DNA from: Guyparkeria hydrothermalis
Lineage (GTDB): Bacteria; Pseudomonadota; Gammaproteobacteria; Halothiobacillales; Halothiobacillaceae
Assembly: GCF_023555385.1 (NCBI RefSeq)
Contig: NZ_JAJSED010000001.1
Coordinates: 2,152,311 to 2,216,310, forward strand
Direction: 5' to 3'
Length of the DNA: 64,000 nucleotides
Shown here: positions 36,322 to 42,509 of the stretch, piece after piece
Position numbering within the stretch: the stretch's first letter is position 1
Layout: each line of letters begins with the position of its first letter
Notes under the pieces: model-generated
Database searches by the model: none
What the model saw: the letters and a program-made list of their open reading frames with translations, nothing else
What the model was told of the DNA's origin: nothing
Translations under genes and position numbers: made by a program

Positions 36322-36655
36322 GGCGCTCAGTCTCCTTGGTCGTTGTTCGGTTCTTGTTCCTTTCCGTTTGCCCTGCCGGCGAGGCGGGGCACGCGGCGAG
36401 TGTAGTCGGGCTTTTCCGGCACCGCGACACCGGGTTTGTCTGCTCGGCGTGCGATGGATTCCATGGCTAATGCTTTCAGGTGAGGCGGGAACTAATCGGG
36501 CTGGACCGCGTCAGGCTGTGGTGGGCGTGCCGGAAGCTCCAGAGGGTCCGGGCCGACCGTTCCCCGGCCGCCATGTCCGACCACCGTCCCGCCGGAACCG
36601 GTGGTTTCCCGATGTCGCAATCGCCCGCTGAGGCGGGAAAGGACGATAGTCAGCG
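36322..36655. other. Divergent intergenic region between the glycerate and glucan operons
   Basis: This 334-bp stretch has no supported gene. It must hold the promoters of both divergent operons. A TACACT on the minus strand (36404-36399) is a weak -10 candidate for the permease. A small hairpin, CCCGC-TGAG-GCGGG (36624-36637), lies in the leader just before the opgG ribosome site and could affect its translation. I see no clear operator or repeat. Confidence 0.6.
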
Positions 36656-38254
36656 ATGACGAAATTCAGTGTGACCCCGGGCGCATGCCCTCGAGCGGGC
36701 GCTTTTTCCCCGTCCCGTCACGTGTGTGCCGCGCTCTGTATGGTGCTGGGCCTGCTCCCGGCGCCGTCGGTGTTCGCCTTCGGTCTGGATCAGGTCGATG
36801 CCGTCGCCCGGACGCTTGCCAAGCGCGACTACGCGCCGCCTGCCACCACCCCGGAGGCACTGAGCCAGGTCGATGCGGATACCTTCGGCCAGATCCGCTA
36901 TAAGCACGGTTCGCGGCTGGACTGGGGCGGCTCCCCGTTTTCGGTTCAGCCGGTCTCGGCCGGCCATGTCTACCGTCACCCGGTGGAACTGTTCGAGGTC
37001 ATCGACGATCAGGTGCACCGGGTGCCGTTTACCAAGTCGGACTTCCACTGGCCCAACGAGTCGTTTGCCCGCAAGGTGCCGGCCGACCTGGGTTTCGCCG
37101 GCTTCGGGATCCGTTATCCCCTGCAGCGTCCGGATGCGCCTGAGACGGTCGTTCGCTTCCTGGGCGGCGCCTTGTTCCGTGCGGTGGCCCATGAGCAGGT
37201 GATGGGCGCTCACGCCCGGGGTCTGGCCATCGACACCGGCCTGCCTGCCGGCGAGGAATTCCCGGCATTCCGCCGATTCTGGCTGGTTCGCCCTGATCCG
37301 GGGGCGCGCCGCATGACCGTGTACGCCCTGATGGACAGCGAGTCGCTGACCGGGGCCTACCGCTTCGTCATCGAGCCGGGAGCCGATCAGACGATCATCC
37401 GGGTAAAGGCCCGGCTGCATGCCCGCCGCCCCGTCGACCGGCTGGGCCTGGCCCCGATCTCGTCGATGTACTTCTACGGCCAGAACGAACGGCCGGATGC
37501 GTCGCACTGGCGGCCGGCCGTGTTCAGTTCCAGCGGCCTGCTCATCCACGAGGGAGAGGGCGGCTGGTTGTACCGGCCGCTGCGAAACCCGCGCGAGTTG
37601 CGCCTGGACCAGTTCCCTGCCGACGGCGTGCGAGGTTTCGGGCTGATGCAACGCGATACCCGCTTCGGCTCGTTCGAGGATCCCGTGGGCCGCTTCGAGA
37701 AACGGCCGTCCGTGTGGGTGACGCCTCAGGCGGGTTTCGGTGGCGGCACCCTCGACCTGGTACAGCTGCCGGTGGACAGCGACCGCCACGAGAACCAGGT
37801 GGTCTTCTTCGAGCCGCATGAAAAGCTCAAGCCGGGCGCGCCGATCGCCTTCGCCTACGACGTCAGCTTCGGGCACCGTGATGCGGTGACCGAGCAGATC
37901 GCCCAGGTGCGAGGCGTTCTCATTGGTGTCGAGGGGCCCGACAAGCAGGGTGGCGGGCCGTCGGATCCCGCGTATCGCGTCAACGTGGATTACACCGGCG
38001 GTGCGCTGTCGTCCCTGCCCAACAACGCACCGGTGGTCGCCTCGATTTCCGGTCAAGAGTCGGTTCGCGTGCTCGAGCAGTCCGTGGCCCCGTTGCCGGA
38101 GGGTGGTTGGCGGCTGTCGATGCTGCTGCAGCCGACGGGTCAGCAGCCACTGAAGGTGCGTGCTTCCCTTGCGCTCGACGGCAAGACCATTTCCGAAAGC
38201 TGGCAGGACACGCTGCCCGGCCAGGTGGCCAGCTATCTGGAGGAAGGAAAATGA
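36656..38254 (+). CDS. opgG: Periplasmic glucan biosynthesis protein OpgG (MdoG)
   Basis: This 532-residue protein has a signal peptide (ALCMVLGLLPAPSVFA, cleaved near residue 41). It has the OpgG two-domain beta-sandwich. Conserved segments include LAKRDYAPP, QIRYKHGSRLDW, AHARGLAIDTGLPAGEEFPAFRRFW, RGFGLMQRDTRFGSFED and RPSVWV. OpgG acts with OpgH in making branched osmoregulated periplasmic glucans; in E. coli it is recently described as a glucan hydrolase. It is first in a four-gene operon, and its stop overlaps the next small ORF (ATGA) behind GGAGGAAGG. Confidence 0.95.
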   Translation: MTKFSVTPGACPRAGAFSPSRHVCAALCMVLGLLPAPSVFAFGLDQVDAVARTLAKRDYAPPATTPEALSQVDADTFGQIRYKHGSRLDWGGSPFSVQPVSAGHVYRHPVELFEVIDDQVHRVPFTKSDFHWPNESFARKVPADLGFAGFGIRYPLQRPDAPETVVRFLGGALFRAVAHEQVMGAHARGLAIDTGLPAGEEFPAFRRFWLVRPDPGARRMTVYALMDSESLTGAYRFVIEPGADQTIIRVKARLHARRPVDRLGLAPISSMYFYGQNERPDASHWRPAVFSSSGLLIHEGEGGWLYRPLRNPRELRLDQFPADGVRGFGLMQRDTRFGSFEDPVGRFEKRPSVWVTPQAGFGGGTLDLVQLPVDSDRHENQVVFFEPHEKLKPGAPIAFAYDVSFGHRDAVTEQIAQVRGVLIGVEGPDKQGGGPSDPAYRVNVDYTGGALSSLPNNAPVVASISGQESVRVLEQSVAPLPEGGWRLSMLLQPTGQQPLKVRASLALDGKTISESWQDTLPGQVASYLEEGK

Positions 38255-38535
38255 CCGAGGCTCGACGTCCGCATGGCGATACCCCCGTTGTGGGGCATGA
38301 CGTGTGCGCGGCACTGCGTCGCTATGGACGTGCGGTGGCGCACGAGGTCTCGCTGACGGGCCGGCCGGTGGAGGCCGGGGCGCTGGTGCCGACCCGGGCG
38401 GCGGCCGATGCGCGCCTGGACGAATCACTCCGCCGGCTGGTGGAGGCGCCGCGCCGCAGCGGTCGGCCGATCCATCGGGCCTCGCTCGGCTACGCCAACT
38501 CGGTTGCTTCCGACGCGGGCAGGGGCGAGTCGTGA
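38251..38535 (+). CDS. 94-residue unknown protein between opgG and opgH
   Basis: This is a small basic soluble protein with an excellent ribosome site (GGAGGAAGG, 4 bp before ATG 38251) and 4-bp overlaps with both neighbours, which strongly supports translation. It has no signal peptide or membrane helix. It is rich in Arg and Ala, with VCAALRRYGRAVAHEVS and RLDESLRRLVEAPRR segments likely helical. I recognise no family. It occupies the place where longer OpgH proteins carry an N-terminal cytoplasmic region, so it may be a detached version of that region or an unrelated accessory. Confidence 0.75.
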   Translation: MTEARRPHGDTPVVGHDVCAALRRYGRAVAHEVSLTGRPVEAGALVPTRAAADARLDESLRRLVEAPRRSGRPIHRASLGYANSVASDAGRGES

Positions 38536-40658
38536 TCGACGCCTGGCGCCGGACGCTCTTTCTGCTGTTGGTGCTCGCCCAGACGGCGGCGGGCACCTGG
38601 GGCATGATCTGGGTGCTGCCTTACCACGGCACGCGTCCCGTGGAGATCGCCATTCTCGCGACCTTCATTCCCCTCTATACCTTCATCACGGCCGGTAGCT
38701 GGATGGCGATCTTCGGCTTCCTCATGCGTCGGGTGTCGGGACGGGGAGACCGGCATGGCCTGATGCGGCGCTACGCAGACCAATGGCCGCAGGCCCCGCT
38801 CGCCTCGACCGCGGTGATCATGCCGATCTACCACGAGGACGTCGATCGGGTATACCAGGGGCTGCGGGCCACCTTGATCTCGCTACTCGAGACCGGCGAG
38901 AGCGACCCGTTCGAATTCTTCCTGCTCTCCGACAGTCGCGACCCGGAGATCTGGCTTGCCGAACAGGCGGCATGGCGGTCGCTGGTGGACGAGTTCGGGC
39001 TGGAGGGGCAGCTTCACTACCGTCGTCGACGCGTCAATCTCAAGGCGAAGACCGGCAACGTCTCCGACTTTCTGCGCCGCTGGGGGAGCGATTTCCGTTA
39101 CTTCGTGGTCCTCGATGCCGACAGCGTCATGTCGGGGGAGGCCCTGACGACACTGGTGCGGCTGATGGAGTGCGACAGCCGGGTCGGCATGATCCAGACG
39201 GTGCCGCGGCTGTTCAATGCCCGTTCGGCCTTCGCCCGGATGCAGCAGTTCGTCACCCACCTGTACGGGCCGCTGTTCACCGACGGGCTGGCGGCGCTGC
39301 AGCGTTCGGAGGCGGTCTTCTGGGGACACAACGCCATCATCCGCACCGAGCCGTTCATGCGCCACTGCGGCCTGCCCCGCATGCGTGGGGTGGGGCTGTG
39401 GCGCGGCGCGGTGCTCAGCCACGATTTCCTCGAGGCATCCCTGATGTCACGCGCCGGCTACCAGGTCTGGCTGGAGACCGGCATACCGGGCAGCTTCGAG
39501 GAGTCGCCGCCGTCGCTGGACGACGAGCTGATCCGGGATCGCCGCTGGTCCAAGGGCAACCTGCAGCATCTGCGCCACCTGCTGGCCGAGCCGGGACTGC
39601 GAGTAGCCCATCGTTTCGCCCTGCTCAACGGCATCTTTGCCTATGTCGCCTCGCCGGTCTGGTTCCTGTTTCTGGTATTCACCACGATCGAGGTGGCCCG
39701 CTTCAAGCTGGGCGACATCGACTATTTCCCCGACCCGGACGCGCTGTATCCCGCCTGGCCGCAATGGCATCCCGAGTGGGCGCTGCTGCTGGTCACGAGC
39801 ACGTTGGTGACGCTGTTTCTGCCCAAGGTCCTGGCCGTGCTGGAAGTGCTTATCTTCGACCGGGAACGCCTGCGGGGATTTGGTAGCGCGCCGCGATTGG
39901 TGCAGGGATTCTTCCTGGAAAACCTCTTTTCGGTCCTGCTCGCGCCGGTGCGGATGCTGGCCCACAGCATCTTCGTCGTCACCGCGTTGTTGAACGTGAC
40001 GGTGCGCTGGGCTGGGCAGAACCGCGGCAACGAACTTTCCTGGCGCACGGCGATGGCCCGCCACGTGCCGGGGGCGGTGCTGTCGCTCGCCTGGACGGGG
40101 GGCGCGTATCTCATCGATCCCTACTTCTTCTTCTGGACCCTGCCGATCACCGTGCCGTTGGTGCTGGCGGTGCCGGTCACGGTCGGGCTATCTCGCTTCA
40201 CGCTTGGTCAACGCTGGCGTCGCAAGGGGATCTGGTTGACGCCACCCGAGGCCGGCCGTGACGACCCGGTGCTGGAGCGTTTCCAGCCGGATGCCGTTGC
40301 GCCCCGGCCGGGTGGGGAGTCCGGCTGGCTGCTGTGGACGCTGCTCGACCCGACGCAATGGCGCCAGGCCGCGGCTCATGCGCCGCGACGCGGTGGGCTG
40401 GCCCGACGGGCTGCCCAGCGAGTGGCCGAAGATTGGATCACCGCTGGCCCGGACGGCATGCCGGGCCAGCGAGCCGCACGCGTGCTGGACGACATCGAGG
40501 CGATGCGGCGCGTGCACGAATACGCCTGGCGCGGCGAGGTCGCGGACCCATGGGGACGGCTGGCCGAGCGCTATGCCCGGCATGTCTGTACCGGGGCGGA
40601 GGCAGCGGTCGGAAGACCGGGGATATCAACTGACGAATCAGGAGGGTATGCATCATGA
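38532..40658 (+). CDS. opgH: Glucan biosynthesis glucosyltransferase OpgH (MdoH), short form
   Basis: This 708-residue membrane GT2 enzyme polymerises glucose from UDP-glucose and passes the glucan across the inner membrane. The catalytic core has IMPIYHEDVDRV, LLSDSRDP, the DxD of VVLDADSVMSG (about residues 194-196) and the acceptor motif RDRRW (about 335). Several helices follow. The start is GTG 38532 (GTGA overlap), and the first helix begins within ten residues. E. coli OpgH (847 residues) has about 140 cytoplasmic residues before its first helix; those are missing here. The frame is open upstream, but that stretch does not resemble OpgH. Confidence 0.93.
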   Translation: MIDAWRRTLFLLLVLAQTAAGTWGMIWVLPYHGTRPVEIAILATFIPLYTFITAGSWMAIFGFLMRRVSGRGDRHGLMRRYADQWPQAPLASTAVIMPIYHEDVDRVYQGLRATLISLLETGESDPFEFFLLSDSRDPEIWLAEQAAWRSLVDEFGLEGQLHYRRRRVNLKAKTGNVSDFLRRWGSDFRYFVVLDADSVMSGEALTTLVRLMECDSRVGMIQTVPRLFNARSAFARMQQFVTHLYGPLFTDGLAALQRSEAVFWGHNAIIRTEPFMRHCGLPRMRGVGLWRGAVLSHDFLEASLMSRAGYQVWLETGIPGSFEESPPSLDDELIRDRRWSKGNLQHLRHLLAEPGLRVAHRFALLNGIFAYVASPVWFLFLVFTTIEVARFKLGDIDYFPDPDALYPAWPQWHPEWALLLVTSTLVTLFLPKVLAVLEVLIFDRERLRGFGSAPRLVQGFFLENLFSVLLAPVRMLAHSIFVVTALLNVTVRWAGQNRGNELSWRTAMARHVPGAVLSLAWTGGAYLIDPYFFFWTLPITVPLVLAVPVTVGLSRFTLGQRWRRKGIWLTPPEAGRDDPVLERFQPDAVAPRPGGESGWLLWTLLDPTQWRQAAAHAPRRGGLARRAAQRVAEDWITAGPDGMPGQRAARVLDDIEAMRRVHEYAWRGEVADPWGRLAERYARHVCTGAEAAVGRPGISTDESGGYAS

Positions 40659-42286
40659 GTGACCACTCGATCCATCGGCCGGGGCGACGGGCCTGGCTAC
40701 GCGGCCTGCTTGCGATGGGCGTAGCAGCCGGCAGTGCCCGGTCGCTTAGCGCCATGGCCTCTGAGGCCGTCGATGCGAACACCGGCCTGGAACTGGGGCC
40801 GGCCGAGCCGTTCAGCTTCGAGTCGCTCATCCAGCGGGCGGAAAAGCTTGCCGCCGCCCCGTACGACCCGCCGCCGCGGCCGGCTCCGGAGGCAATCCAG
40901 TCGATCAACTACGATGCCGCCGGCAAGATCCATTACCGCCGCGACGTGGCGCTGTGGAAAGACGGCCCGTCGGTCTACCCGATCACCTTCCGCCCCCTGG
41001 GCGAGTACTTCCCCAAGCCGGTGGCCATGCATGTGGTGGCCGGCGGCGAGGCGCGAGCGGTTCGGTATCGTCCCGAGTATTTCGACATGCCGTCCGACAG
41101 CCCGCTGCGGGCCGTGCCCGAGGGGTCCTCGGGCATCGCGGGATTCTGGGTACACCGTTCCCGGCGGACACACGACTGGTTCGAGGAGGAGCCTTGGGCG
41201 ACTTTCCAGGGGGCGAGCTATTTCCGTGCCGTCTCCGAGACGGGGCAGGTGGGGATGTCCGCTCGCGGTATCGCGATAAACACGGCCGGTGAGCAGGAGG
41301 AGGAATTCCCCGATTTCCGCGCCTTCTGGTTCCAGCCGGCCACGAGCGAGGGGGACGCGGTGGTGGTCCACGCGCTCCTCGACGGGCCGTCGATCACCGG
41401 TGCCTACCGCATTGCCCTGCGCTCGCGCGGCGATACCGAGATGGAAATCGAAAAGCACCTGTTCGTGCGCAAGACCATTGACCAGCTGGGGATCGCGCCG
41501 CTGACATCGATGTACTGGTACACCGAGACCCCCAATGTGCATCTGCGAGGCTGGCGGCCCGAGGTGCACGATTCGGACACCCTGGCGATCTGGAACGGCA
41601 GCGGCGAGCATCTGGTCCGTCCGCTGGTCAACCCGGTTGCGCGCGGTTACTCCGCGTTCGCCGATCAGAACCCGCGCGGATTCGGCCTGTTGCAGCGCGA
41701 TCGGGCGTTCGTTCACTACCTCGACGGCGTCGGCTACGAGAAACGACCCTCCGTGTGGGTCGAGCCGCTCGAGGATTGGGGGGCAGGGCAGGTGACACTG
41801 GTCGAGTTGCCCACGAACGACGAGACCTTCGACAACATCATCGCCTTCTGGCAGCCACAGGGAGCGCAGCTGGCCGGGACGGCCCTGACGTATCGCTACC
41901 GGCTTTACTGGAGCGAAGAGCAGCCGTTCGACCCGGATCTTGCCAAGGCCGTCAGCCTGCGTGCCGGCCCGGGTGGCGATTTCGGGGTCGCCCGCGTCCC
42001 TGACACGGTGCGGCTGGTGATCGGCTGGGAAGGAGATCGGCTCGCATCACTCGACCCGGAGAACGCCACCTTCGAGGTCGAGGCGAGCCCGGTGGGCGAG
42101 ATCTCGAACGTCCGTGTCCGGCGCCTGCCGGGGCACGCCGACCGCTGGCAGGCCGAGTTCGACCTGCATGTCGCCCAGGATGACCCGGTGGAACTGAGCG
42201 GCAACCTGCTCGTCGACGGCGAACCGGTCGCCGAGAAGTGGCTGTACCAGTACCACCGGGAGGCGTTCCTCGAGGTGATGCCATAG
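40655..42286 (+). CDS. opgD: Glucan biosynthesis protein OpgD (MdoD), Tat-exported
   Basis: This 543-residue paralogue of OpgG has an N-terminal twin-arginine signal (P-G-R-R-A-W-L-R-G then a hydrophobic stretch), as in E. coli OpgD. Conserved segments are ARGIAINT, EEEFPDFRAFWF, LGIAPLTSMYW, NPRGFGLLQRDRAFVHY, KRPSVWVEPLEDWG and ETWLYQY-like EKWLYQY near the end. OpgD trims or controls the size of periplasmic glucans in E. coli. It is last in the operon, with ATGA overlap to opgH and AGGAGG upstream. OpgG, OpgH and OpgD in one operon differs from the separate opgD locus of E. coli. Confidence 0.94.
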   Translation: MSDHSIHRPGRRAWLRGLLAMGVAAGSARSLSAMASEAVDANTGLELGPAEPFSFESLIQRAEKLAAAPYDPPPRPAPEAIQSINYDAAGKIHYRRDVALWKDGPSVYPITFRPLGEYFPKPVAMHVVAGGEARAVRYRPEYFDMPSDSPLRAVPEGSSGIAGFWVHRSRRTHDWFEEEPWATFQGASYFRAVSETGQVGMSARGIAINTAGEQEEEFPDFRAFWFQPATSEGDAVVVHALLDGPSITGAYRIALRSRGDTEMEIEKHLFVRKTIDQLGIAPLTSMYWYTETPNVHLRGWRPEVHDSDTLAIWNGSGEHLVRPLVNPVARGYSAFADQNPRGFGLLQRDRAFVHYLDGVGYEKRPSVWVEPLEDWGAGQVTLVELPTNDETFDNIIAFWQPQGAQLAGTALTYRYRLYWSEEQPFDPDLAKAVSLRAGPGGDFGVARVPDTVRLVIGWEGDRLASLDPENATFEVEASPVGEISNVRVRRLPGHADRWQAEFDLHVAQDDPVELSGNLLVDGEPVAEKWLYQYHREAFLEVMP

Positions 42287-42383
42287 CGGCTCACCCACGA
42301 GGGGCAGCGCTCCCGAGGGGAACGACCGCAATGCCTGTTTTGGGGCGGGGCAGTCCGCTGAGGGCCAGCGCGACCGAAGGGTG

Positions 42384-42460
42384 TGGTGGGCCCAACAGGA
42401 CTCGAACCTGTGACCAAGCGATTATGAGTCGCCTGCTCTAACCAACTGAGCTATGGGCCC
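42384..42460 (-). tRNA. tRNA-Ile (anticodon CAU, lysidine-modified)
   Basis: This 77-nt cloverleaf with encoded CCA has the acceptor GGGCCCA / TGGGCCC and the D-arm AGCTCAGTTGGTTAGAGC. The anticodon stem-loop is GGCGA-CTCATAA-TCGCT with anticodon CAT, and the T-arm is ACAGG-TTCGAGT-CCTGT. A CAU anticodon with the tRNA-Ile2 body, as in E. coli ileX, indicates a C34 converted to lysidine by TilS to read AUA. In E. coli ileX also lies close to rpoD. Confidence 0.95.
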
Positions 42461-42481
42461 CGGGCAGCGGTGCAACCGCGA

Positions 42482-42502
42482 GGGCCGGCGAGGAGCCGGC
42501 CC
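42482..42502 (-). terminator. Hairpin between rpoD and tRNA-Ile
   Basis: A perfect 8-bp stem GGGCCGGC / GCCGGCCC closes a 5-nt loop 7 bp after the rpoD stop. No T tract follows, so termination is doubtful. Read-through into the tRNA or protection of the rpoD mRNA 3' end are alternatives. Confidence 0.5.
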
Positions 42503-42509
42503 GGGGATT

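Follow-up and report, generated by a model that had tools for sequence, protein, structure and literature searches.

In a 64,000-nucleotide stretch of the genome of the sulfur bacterium Guyparkeria hydrothermalis (Halothiobacillaceae; contig NZ_JAJSED010000001.1; hereafter the window), the gene for the glucan synthase OpgH is short and is preceded by a separate gene for a 94-residue protein. We conclude that this protein is probably a separately encoded member of the family of OpgH N-terminal domains (N-domains), equivalent in position to OpgI, and a subunit of the OpgH glucan synthase on its cytoplasmic side. The gene, the selection acting on it and the conservation of its place are directly supported, as is the homology between the fused domain and the family at large. 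In Escherichia coli, the OpgH N-domain is a known moonlighting regulator of cell size. OpgH makes the periplasmic glucans needed by many Gram-negative bacteria, pathogens included (PMC10514313). Split loci provide naturally two-part enzymes that allow the domain to be deleted, exchanged or titrated with OpgH left as it is, and a domain carried by a free gene may let its role in glucan synthesis be told from its role in division.

A short OpgH preceded by a small gene

The locus contains the following features.

36656..38254, + strand: opgG, periplasmic glucan biosynthesis protein (MdoG family; Pfam PF04349, 1.5e-147)
38240..38248, + strand: putative Shine-Dalgarno-like GAGGAAGGA, 5' of the small open reading frame (ORF)
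38251..38535, + strand: separate OpgH-N-domain-like protein, OpgI-like in position, 94 residues, ATG start
38467..38493, + strand: PIHRASLGY, the PPxxRxS[MIL] box, residues 73-81 of the 94-residue protein
38532..40658, + strand: opgH, short form, glucan beta-1,2-glucosyltransferase (NF003958, 794 bits; tree)
40655..42286, + strand: second MdoG-family gene (opgD-like), overlapping opgH (PF04349, 3.5e-166)

The four genes opgG, the 94-residue ORF, opgH and the opgD-like gene overlap by 4 nucleotides at each junction. The start of the small ORF (ATGA) overlaps the opgG stop at 38252-38254, and its end overlaps the GTG start of opgH at 38532 (GTGA), placing the gene directly 5' of the OpgH transmembrane core. 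The window thus shows a small separate gene between opgG and opgH, as in the Rhodobacter sphaeroides-type OpgI layout. From 38532, OpgH comprises 708 residues and begins just before its first transmembrane helix. It scores 794 bits against the NCBIfam model NF003958 (MdoH; cutoff 419), and the match starts at model position 18, which indicates that the protein lacks the N-terminal domain; the approximately 136 residues that precede the corresponding point in E. coli OpgH are missing. These results bear out an earlier reading made from the sequence alone (the sequence-only reading), which had described an ORF overlapping its neighbours on both sides and an OpgH without its N-terminal domain, starting close to the first helix. 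NF003958 (PRK05454.2-1) is a 704-position model of short MdoH that the window protein fits; short OpgH is therefore an already recognised subfamily, and the small partner lies outside the model, which spans OpgH only. The DAD and RxxRW columns are invariant in a 19-row OpgH alignment (A2) that includes the window protein; we take the DAD aspartates and RxxRW to be family-2 glycosyltransferase motifs. A sequence search of the PDB gave no match for the window OpgH at 0.001, nor for E. coli OpgH at 1.

The sequence-only reading had made its case for the small gene depend on homologues at the same position in relatives and on purifying selection, and both were found. At the nearest named locus, that of Guyparkeria sp. 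SCN-R1 (L009; OpgH 96% identical to the window), and in the congener L010, the counterpart of the ORF keeps its place and its overlaps with opgG and opgH. A like ORF occupies the opgG-opgH gap in the Halothiobacillus loci L011-L017 and L031, and L018 has one broken by a masked stretch. Between the window and L009, the changes fall mostly at the third codon position (8, 6 and 21 at positions 1, 2 and 3). The Nei-Gojobori ratio of nonsynonymous to synonymous substitution (dN/dS) is 0.22 for this pair, 0.44 and 0.52 in two comparisons with L010, and 0.16-0.35 in the eight Halothiobacillus pairs computed (0.16-0.52 overall, n = 11 pairs). For comparison, one opgG pair gave 0.23 and ten opgH pairs gave 0.04-0.15. 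The small protein is 49% identical between the window and L010, and OpgH is 79% identical. By these substitution measures, the ORF product is a constrained but fast-evolving protein under purifying selection. It had no match in NCBIfam and only sub-cutoff matches in Pfam (PhyR_sigma2 0.028, DUF2379 0.053, TcpQ 0.27), and a Pfam search with six small-partner proteins found no family above cutoff.

An OpgH start further upstream, at GTG 38304, was rejected. The longer ORF looks like an off-frame artefact, since its frame is stopped in relatives: 34 codons before opgH in L010 and, in Halothiobacillus L013, L015 and L016, no more than about 10 codons from where opgH starts. The frame stays open further in L009 and in L011, L012, L014 and L017. 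The stops make unlikely an upstream start that the sequence-only reading had kept in view.

Homology of the separate and fused forms

BLASTP linked separate and fused forms in pairs (database of 44 sequences), namely L058-L088 (4.5e-20), L087-L098 (4e-11) and L083-L054 (3e-8). A profile of 48 separate ORFs, the window ORF among them, matched the fused N-termini of L054 (9.8e-11), L135 (5.1e-7) and E. coli L108 (1.7e-3); the fused rows matched from 5e-7 are presumably Pseudomonas-like. With this profile, none of 560 antisense and none of 549 shuffled decoy ORFs fell below 0.01, and 6 and 0, respectively, fell below 0.1. The reverse search, using a profile of fused N-termini, matched the separate ORFs L082 (3.4e-10), L043 (2.2e-5) and L049 (5.3e-5), with no decoy below 0.01, and 2 and 3 below 0.1. 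Before the profiles were built, L071, L100 and L159 were dropped from the fused set; L018 was dropped too, given its masked stretch.

A profile free of Guyparkeria (A3; 37 of the 48 separate ORFs) matched 35 of 370 genomes at E<=0.001, and in 31 of these 35 a match lies directly before or inside opgH. The other matches lie 1.1 kb before opgH (G221), on another contig (G306), or in genomes with no opgH match, where they are weak (G082 and G216; about 1e-3). Of the 35 genomes, 24 supplied or duplicate a profile row; among the remaining 11, the match is directly before or inside opgH in seven, at 1.1 kb in one, on another contig in one and elsewhere in two. As judged by sequence comparison, the separate proteins are, as a family, homologous to the OpgH N-terminal domain.

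The sequence-only reading saw no clear similarity between the 94-residue protein and the E. coli N-terminus; a weak yet detectable similarity is present, in the PPxxRxS box. The common columns of the joint-profile alignment read PIHRASLGY in the window, MPALLRGSVRH in Halothiobacillus L016, LPLKRGSIGY in L022 and MPEAKRSSMFPDPW in E. coli. The PPxxRxS[MIL] box is thus found in the window protein, and its residues R76 and S78 are invariant in a 13-row alignment (A1). The box aligns with residues 81-89 of E. coli OpgH and overlaps residues 83-101, EAKRSSMFPDPWRTNPVGR. In the accessible text of PMC3723540, the 83-101 peptide is described as sufficient for division inhibition and midcell localisation, and activity is described as not abolished by deletion or alanine scanning of the 18 residues. 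By eye, the PPxxR[GS]S box is apparently kept alone in L089 (where it is also seen in the alignment), L138-L140 and L037, whose N-termini are short or unstructured-looking and lack the helical part. Such box-only N-termini suggest that the box may be the essential element.

Distribution of the split layout

Proportions were taken from the class sample only, in which 63 of 370 gammaproteobacterial genomes had opgH at E<=1e-30. A separate ORF was called when it had at least 60 residues, started near the opgG stop and ended near the opgH core, or when it had a profile hit; most rule-called ORFs were not checked singly against a profile built without them. Under this rule, a separate ORF is present at 34 of the 63 loci and a long in-frame OpgH N-terminus at 11, which leaves 18 with neither; among the 45 loci with a separate or fused version, the domain has its own gene in 34. 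The layout is therefore widespread in the sample and not a peculiarity of the Guyparkeria genome. In a phylum sample, 141 of 396 genomes were matched, and the loci studied were those returned plus 40 chosen regions. Loci fetched twice and five without OpgH were left out; L077 and L085 had no core match.

The 18 loci with neither form are mixed. L081 carries a separate gene further upstream, the genomes of L077 and L085 were matched by the family profile just before opgH, and L057 and L075 appear similar on visual inspection only. In L037 the box alone stands in frame with OpgH; some loci have a short OpgH N-terminus carrying an MPxQ box, and others, L091 and L092 among them, show nothing. In L081 (103-3701), the small gene is parted from opgH by a PIN-domain gene (884-1366; Pfam PF01850, 8.9e-6) plus a 100-residue ORF, which together look like an inserted toxin-antitoxin pair; with genes intervening, the small protein and OpgH need not be one polypeptide. 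One gammaproteobacterial genome (G519) has two opgH copies, L136 (C11) and L112 (C24), each with a separate N-domain-like ORF nearby; for the L136 copy, no opgG was detected upstream within the stretch fetched.

Direction of the change

The OpgH-core tree (135 rows; quick IQ-TREE, LG+G4) excludes 15 near-identical rows as well as L012, L042 and L072, and was rooted on a 42-row clade labelled alpha-type, which includes rows of other classes and some rows of the gammaproteobacterial sample. The window OpgH falls in a 25-row clade in which 24 rows have a separate gene. The 22 E. coli-type fused rows form one clade with a support of 95 in the Shimodaira-Hasegawa-like approximate likelihood ratio test. 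Under the initial coding, 11 changes were required for the three labels (fused 4); recoding L081 as separate and L057 and L075 as unknown reduced this to 8. Fitch parsimony placed three changes from separate to fused, in the E. coli-type clade, L088 and L023, one from short to fused (L093, L095 and L098) and none from fused to separate; ahead of the E. coli-type clade, the reconstructed state is separate. Support is 18-19 at the two nodes just above this clade, which bear on its exact sister group.

The separate state thus seems the older one in the Gammaproteobacteria, and E. coli-type OpgH seems to be a fusion of one origin, which implies that the N-domain was probably not lost from the Guyparkeria OpgH. 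The direction suggests that the one-piece E. coli enzyme arose by the fusing of two genes. The sequence-only reading had offered a detached regulatory domain or a new accessory. The domain option is the better supported, given that separate and fused forms make one family.

Relation to known systems

OpgI of R. sphaeroides, which is reportedly needed for backbone synthesis, is, like the product of the window gene, a small protein encoded between opgG and opgH. An E. coli strain deleted for opgH is complemented by the R. sphaeroides pair opgI and opgH (PMC10514313, accessible text), and a reference title in the same paper gives the order opgGIHC, with opgI between opgG and opgH. The likeness of the window ORF to this OpgI consists of its position and of the box read by eye in a Sulfitobacter stand-in, rather than in the R. 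sphaeroides sequence. In a member of the Rhodobacterales, Sulfitobacter sp. W027 (L176, a plasmid record), opgG is followed by a gene for a 60-residue protein (2292-2474), then by mdoH and opgC; the annotation of the small protein is just 'hypothetical protein'. The 60-residue protein reads ...APLAMPRQTLE... and combines a PLAMPxQ version of the box with no clear hairpin domain. A PLAMPxQ-like box also occurs in frame in other short OpgH and in the separate L096. In Qingshengfaniella, a 62-residue ORF with an APLAMPxQ box (L177:2151-2339) overlaps a glucan biosynthesis gene and has no entry in the partial gene table of the record.

The N-domain of E. coli OpgH (residues 1-138) resembles the window ORF in lying directly ahead of the first OpgH helix and in carrying the PPxxRxS[MIL] box; in contrast, the window version is a separate 94-residue protein and lacks the YL..L start and the PW-TNP stretch. 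The separate-gene family puts OpgI in a common frame with the OpgH N-domain. Searches of open-access literature on OpgI, the OpgH N-domain or their relation, covering mostly titles and the beginnings of abstracts, showed no statement linking the separate gene or OpgI with the OpgH N-domain. As far as the searched literature shows, it is new to connect the separate gene and OpgI-type proteins with the FtsZ-binding domain of E. coli, and the separate-to-fused direction is new as well.

Placement of the Guyparkeria protein and proposed role

The Guyparkeria protein is likely a divergent member of the family; its position, the OpgH tree and the box count for its membership no less than the scores do. 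In a local search, the Guyparkeria-free profile gave 5.6e-6 for L010, 0.002 for the window ORF and 0.0056 for L009, the window value lying barely below the best antisense decoy (0.0032), and the best shuffled decoy at 0.014. Once fused rows were added, the window ORF scored 0.007 and the best decoy 0.013. A joint Halothiobacillus and Guyparkeria profile matched the separate ORF L039 at 2e-4 (best decoy 0.10). In profile-profile comparison, the two genera together matched the short-ORF group with a probability of 85 and a score of 35 (maximum of 80 column shuffles 16.2), and the fused domains with a probability of 26 and a score of 25.8 (largest non-artefact shuffle 16.4). Some hhalign null scores lay near 130; one of them, on inspection, came from just 3 aligned columns at the end of a sequence, and these scores were treated as a numerical artefact. 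Formally, such scores are above the observed one in 1-2 of 80 shuffles for three of the six comparisons in the set that holds the short-ORF-group test, and in 1-4 of 100 for five of the nine in the set that holds the direct Guyparkeria-Halothiobacillus test.

We propose that the 94-residue protein would be co-translated with OpgH through the 4-nucleotide GTGA overlap, that its helical hairpin and conserved PPxxRxS tail would dock on the cytoplasmic face of OpgH, and that the docked protein would be needed for, or would tune, glucan chain synthesis from UDP-glucose. Translational coupling, docking, cytoplasmic location and the role in synthesis are what we infer beyond the gene and its family. 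Acyl carrier protein is a cofactor of OpgH according to the accessible text of PMC3818809, and we speculate that the N-domain might receive it.

Several observations weigh against this assignment. With all Halothiobacillaceae removed from the profile, the window ORF scored 0.42, the best relative 0.0035 and the best decoy 0.008; with fused rows added, the best relative scored 0.0056 and the window ORF 2.1. The genome-wide search with the Guyparkeria-free profile did not list the window ORF at E<=10 and gave two other places at 0.02 and 0.18, and its orthologues in G001 and G010 had no match at 0.1 in the genome-wide profile search. A profile built from the three Guyparkeria ORFs ranked an antisense decoy (0.0009) above every match outside the profile itself. 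Compared directly, the Guyparkeria and Halothiobacillus profiles gave a probability of 1.9 and a score of 17.9 (shuffle maximum 17.0), and between 1 and 63 of 1000 shuffles equalled the pairwise scores between the two genera. In the family alignment, the window ORF begins near column 49 and is without the N-terminal YL..L stretch, which is present in many members and absent from box-only forms; also missing is the PW-TNP stretch that follows the box. An AlphaFold model of the ORF, made with a 13-row alignment, predicts at low confidence helices 13-36 and 49-65 and has a low-confidence tail with the box; its mean predicted local distance difference test value is 66 and its predicted template modelling score 0.30, and it gives no support for docking on OpgH. 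For the natural fused OpgH L021, the modelled core is good and the block means of the N-domain are 27-57. Given such weak models in the N-domain, neither fold nor docking is visible. Finally, neither domain nor box was seen in L091, L092 and some other OpgH, so the domain is not universally required.

Outside its genus, the window ORF resembles the family only weakly, and the genome-wide profile search did not find it; both results would also fit an unrelated small accessory of glucan synthesis, standing at the place that the OpgH N-domain holds in other lineages. We consider this unlikely: nearly all members of the window OpgH clade have a separate domain, the Halothiobacillus ORFs at the corresponding place are alignable with R76 and S78 kept, and the match of the joint profile to L039 stands well clear of its decoys.

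Another reading makes the free protein a dissociable division regulator, carrying the FtsZ inhibition of the E. coli N-domain and coupling cell size to UDP-glucose without a tether. Homology of the family to that domain and the overlap of the box with the 83-101 inhibitory peptide speak for it. It is nevertheless quite improbable, as the PW-TNP part of the inhibitory peptide is missing in the window ORF, the activity in E. coli survives the loss of the 18 residues, and the Sulfitobacter positional counterpart keeps a version of the box and little else. In addition, conservation of the OpgH N-domain is stated, in the accessible text of PMC3723540, for the order Enterobacteriales. An FtsZ role of the small protein is less likely than that of a synthase subunit. 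A wider idea, to which we give little credence, is that E. coli OpgH owes its FtsZ-regulating head to the capture of an ancestral OpgI-like subunit, fused once in the lineage of the E. coli-type enzyme, and that the free protein, as in Guyparkeria, could leave OpgH and would be a diffusible reporter of UDP-glucose supply acting on FtsZ and other targets. A non-functional or merely translation-coupling leader ORF, which the short length, double overlap and fast evolution might suggest, is very improbable in view of the dN/dS values with a conserved box and the persistence of the family apart from opgH (L081) and inside fused OpgH.

Surroundings of the operon

The whole operon of opgG, small gene, opgH and opgD (window 36322-42509; L184-L187) is present in 3 of 11 Guyparkeria genomes, and in three of the seven that are at least 90% complete. 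In the window, a tRNA-Met gene (42384-42460) flanks the operon site. In four of the other Guyparkeria genomes (G002, G003, G005 and G009), the upstream permease gene adjoins rpoD, with about 0.44-0.54 kb between them. The opgD-like gene (40655..42286) encodes RRAWLRG, which we take to be a twin-arginine-like signal.

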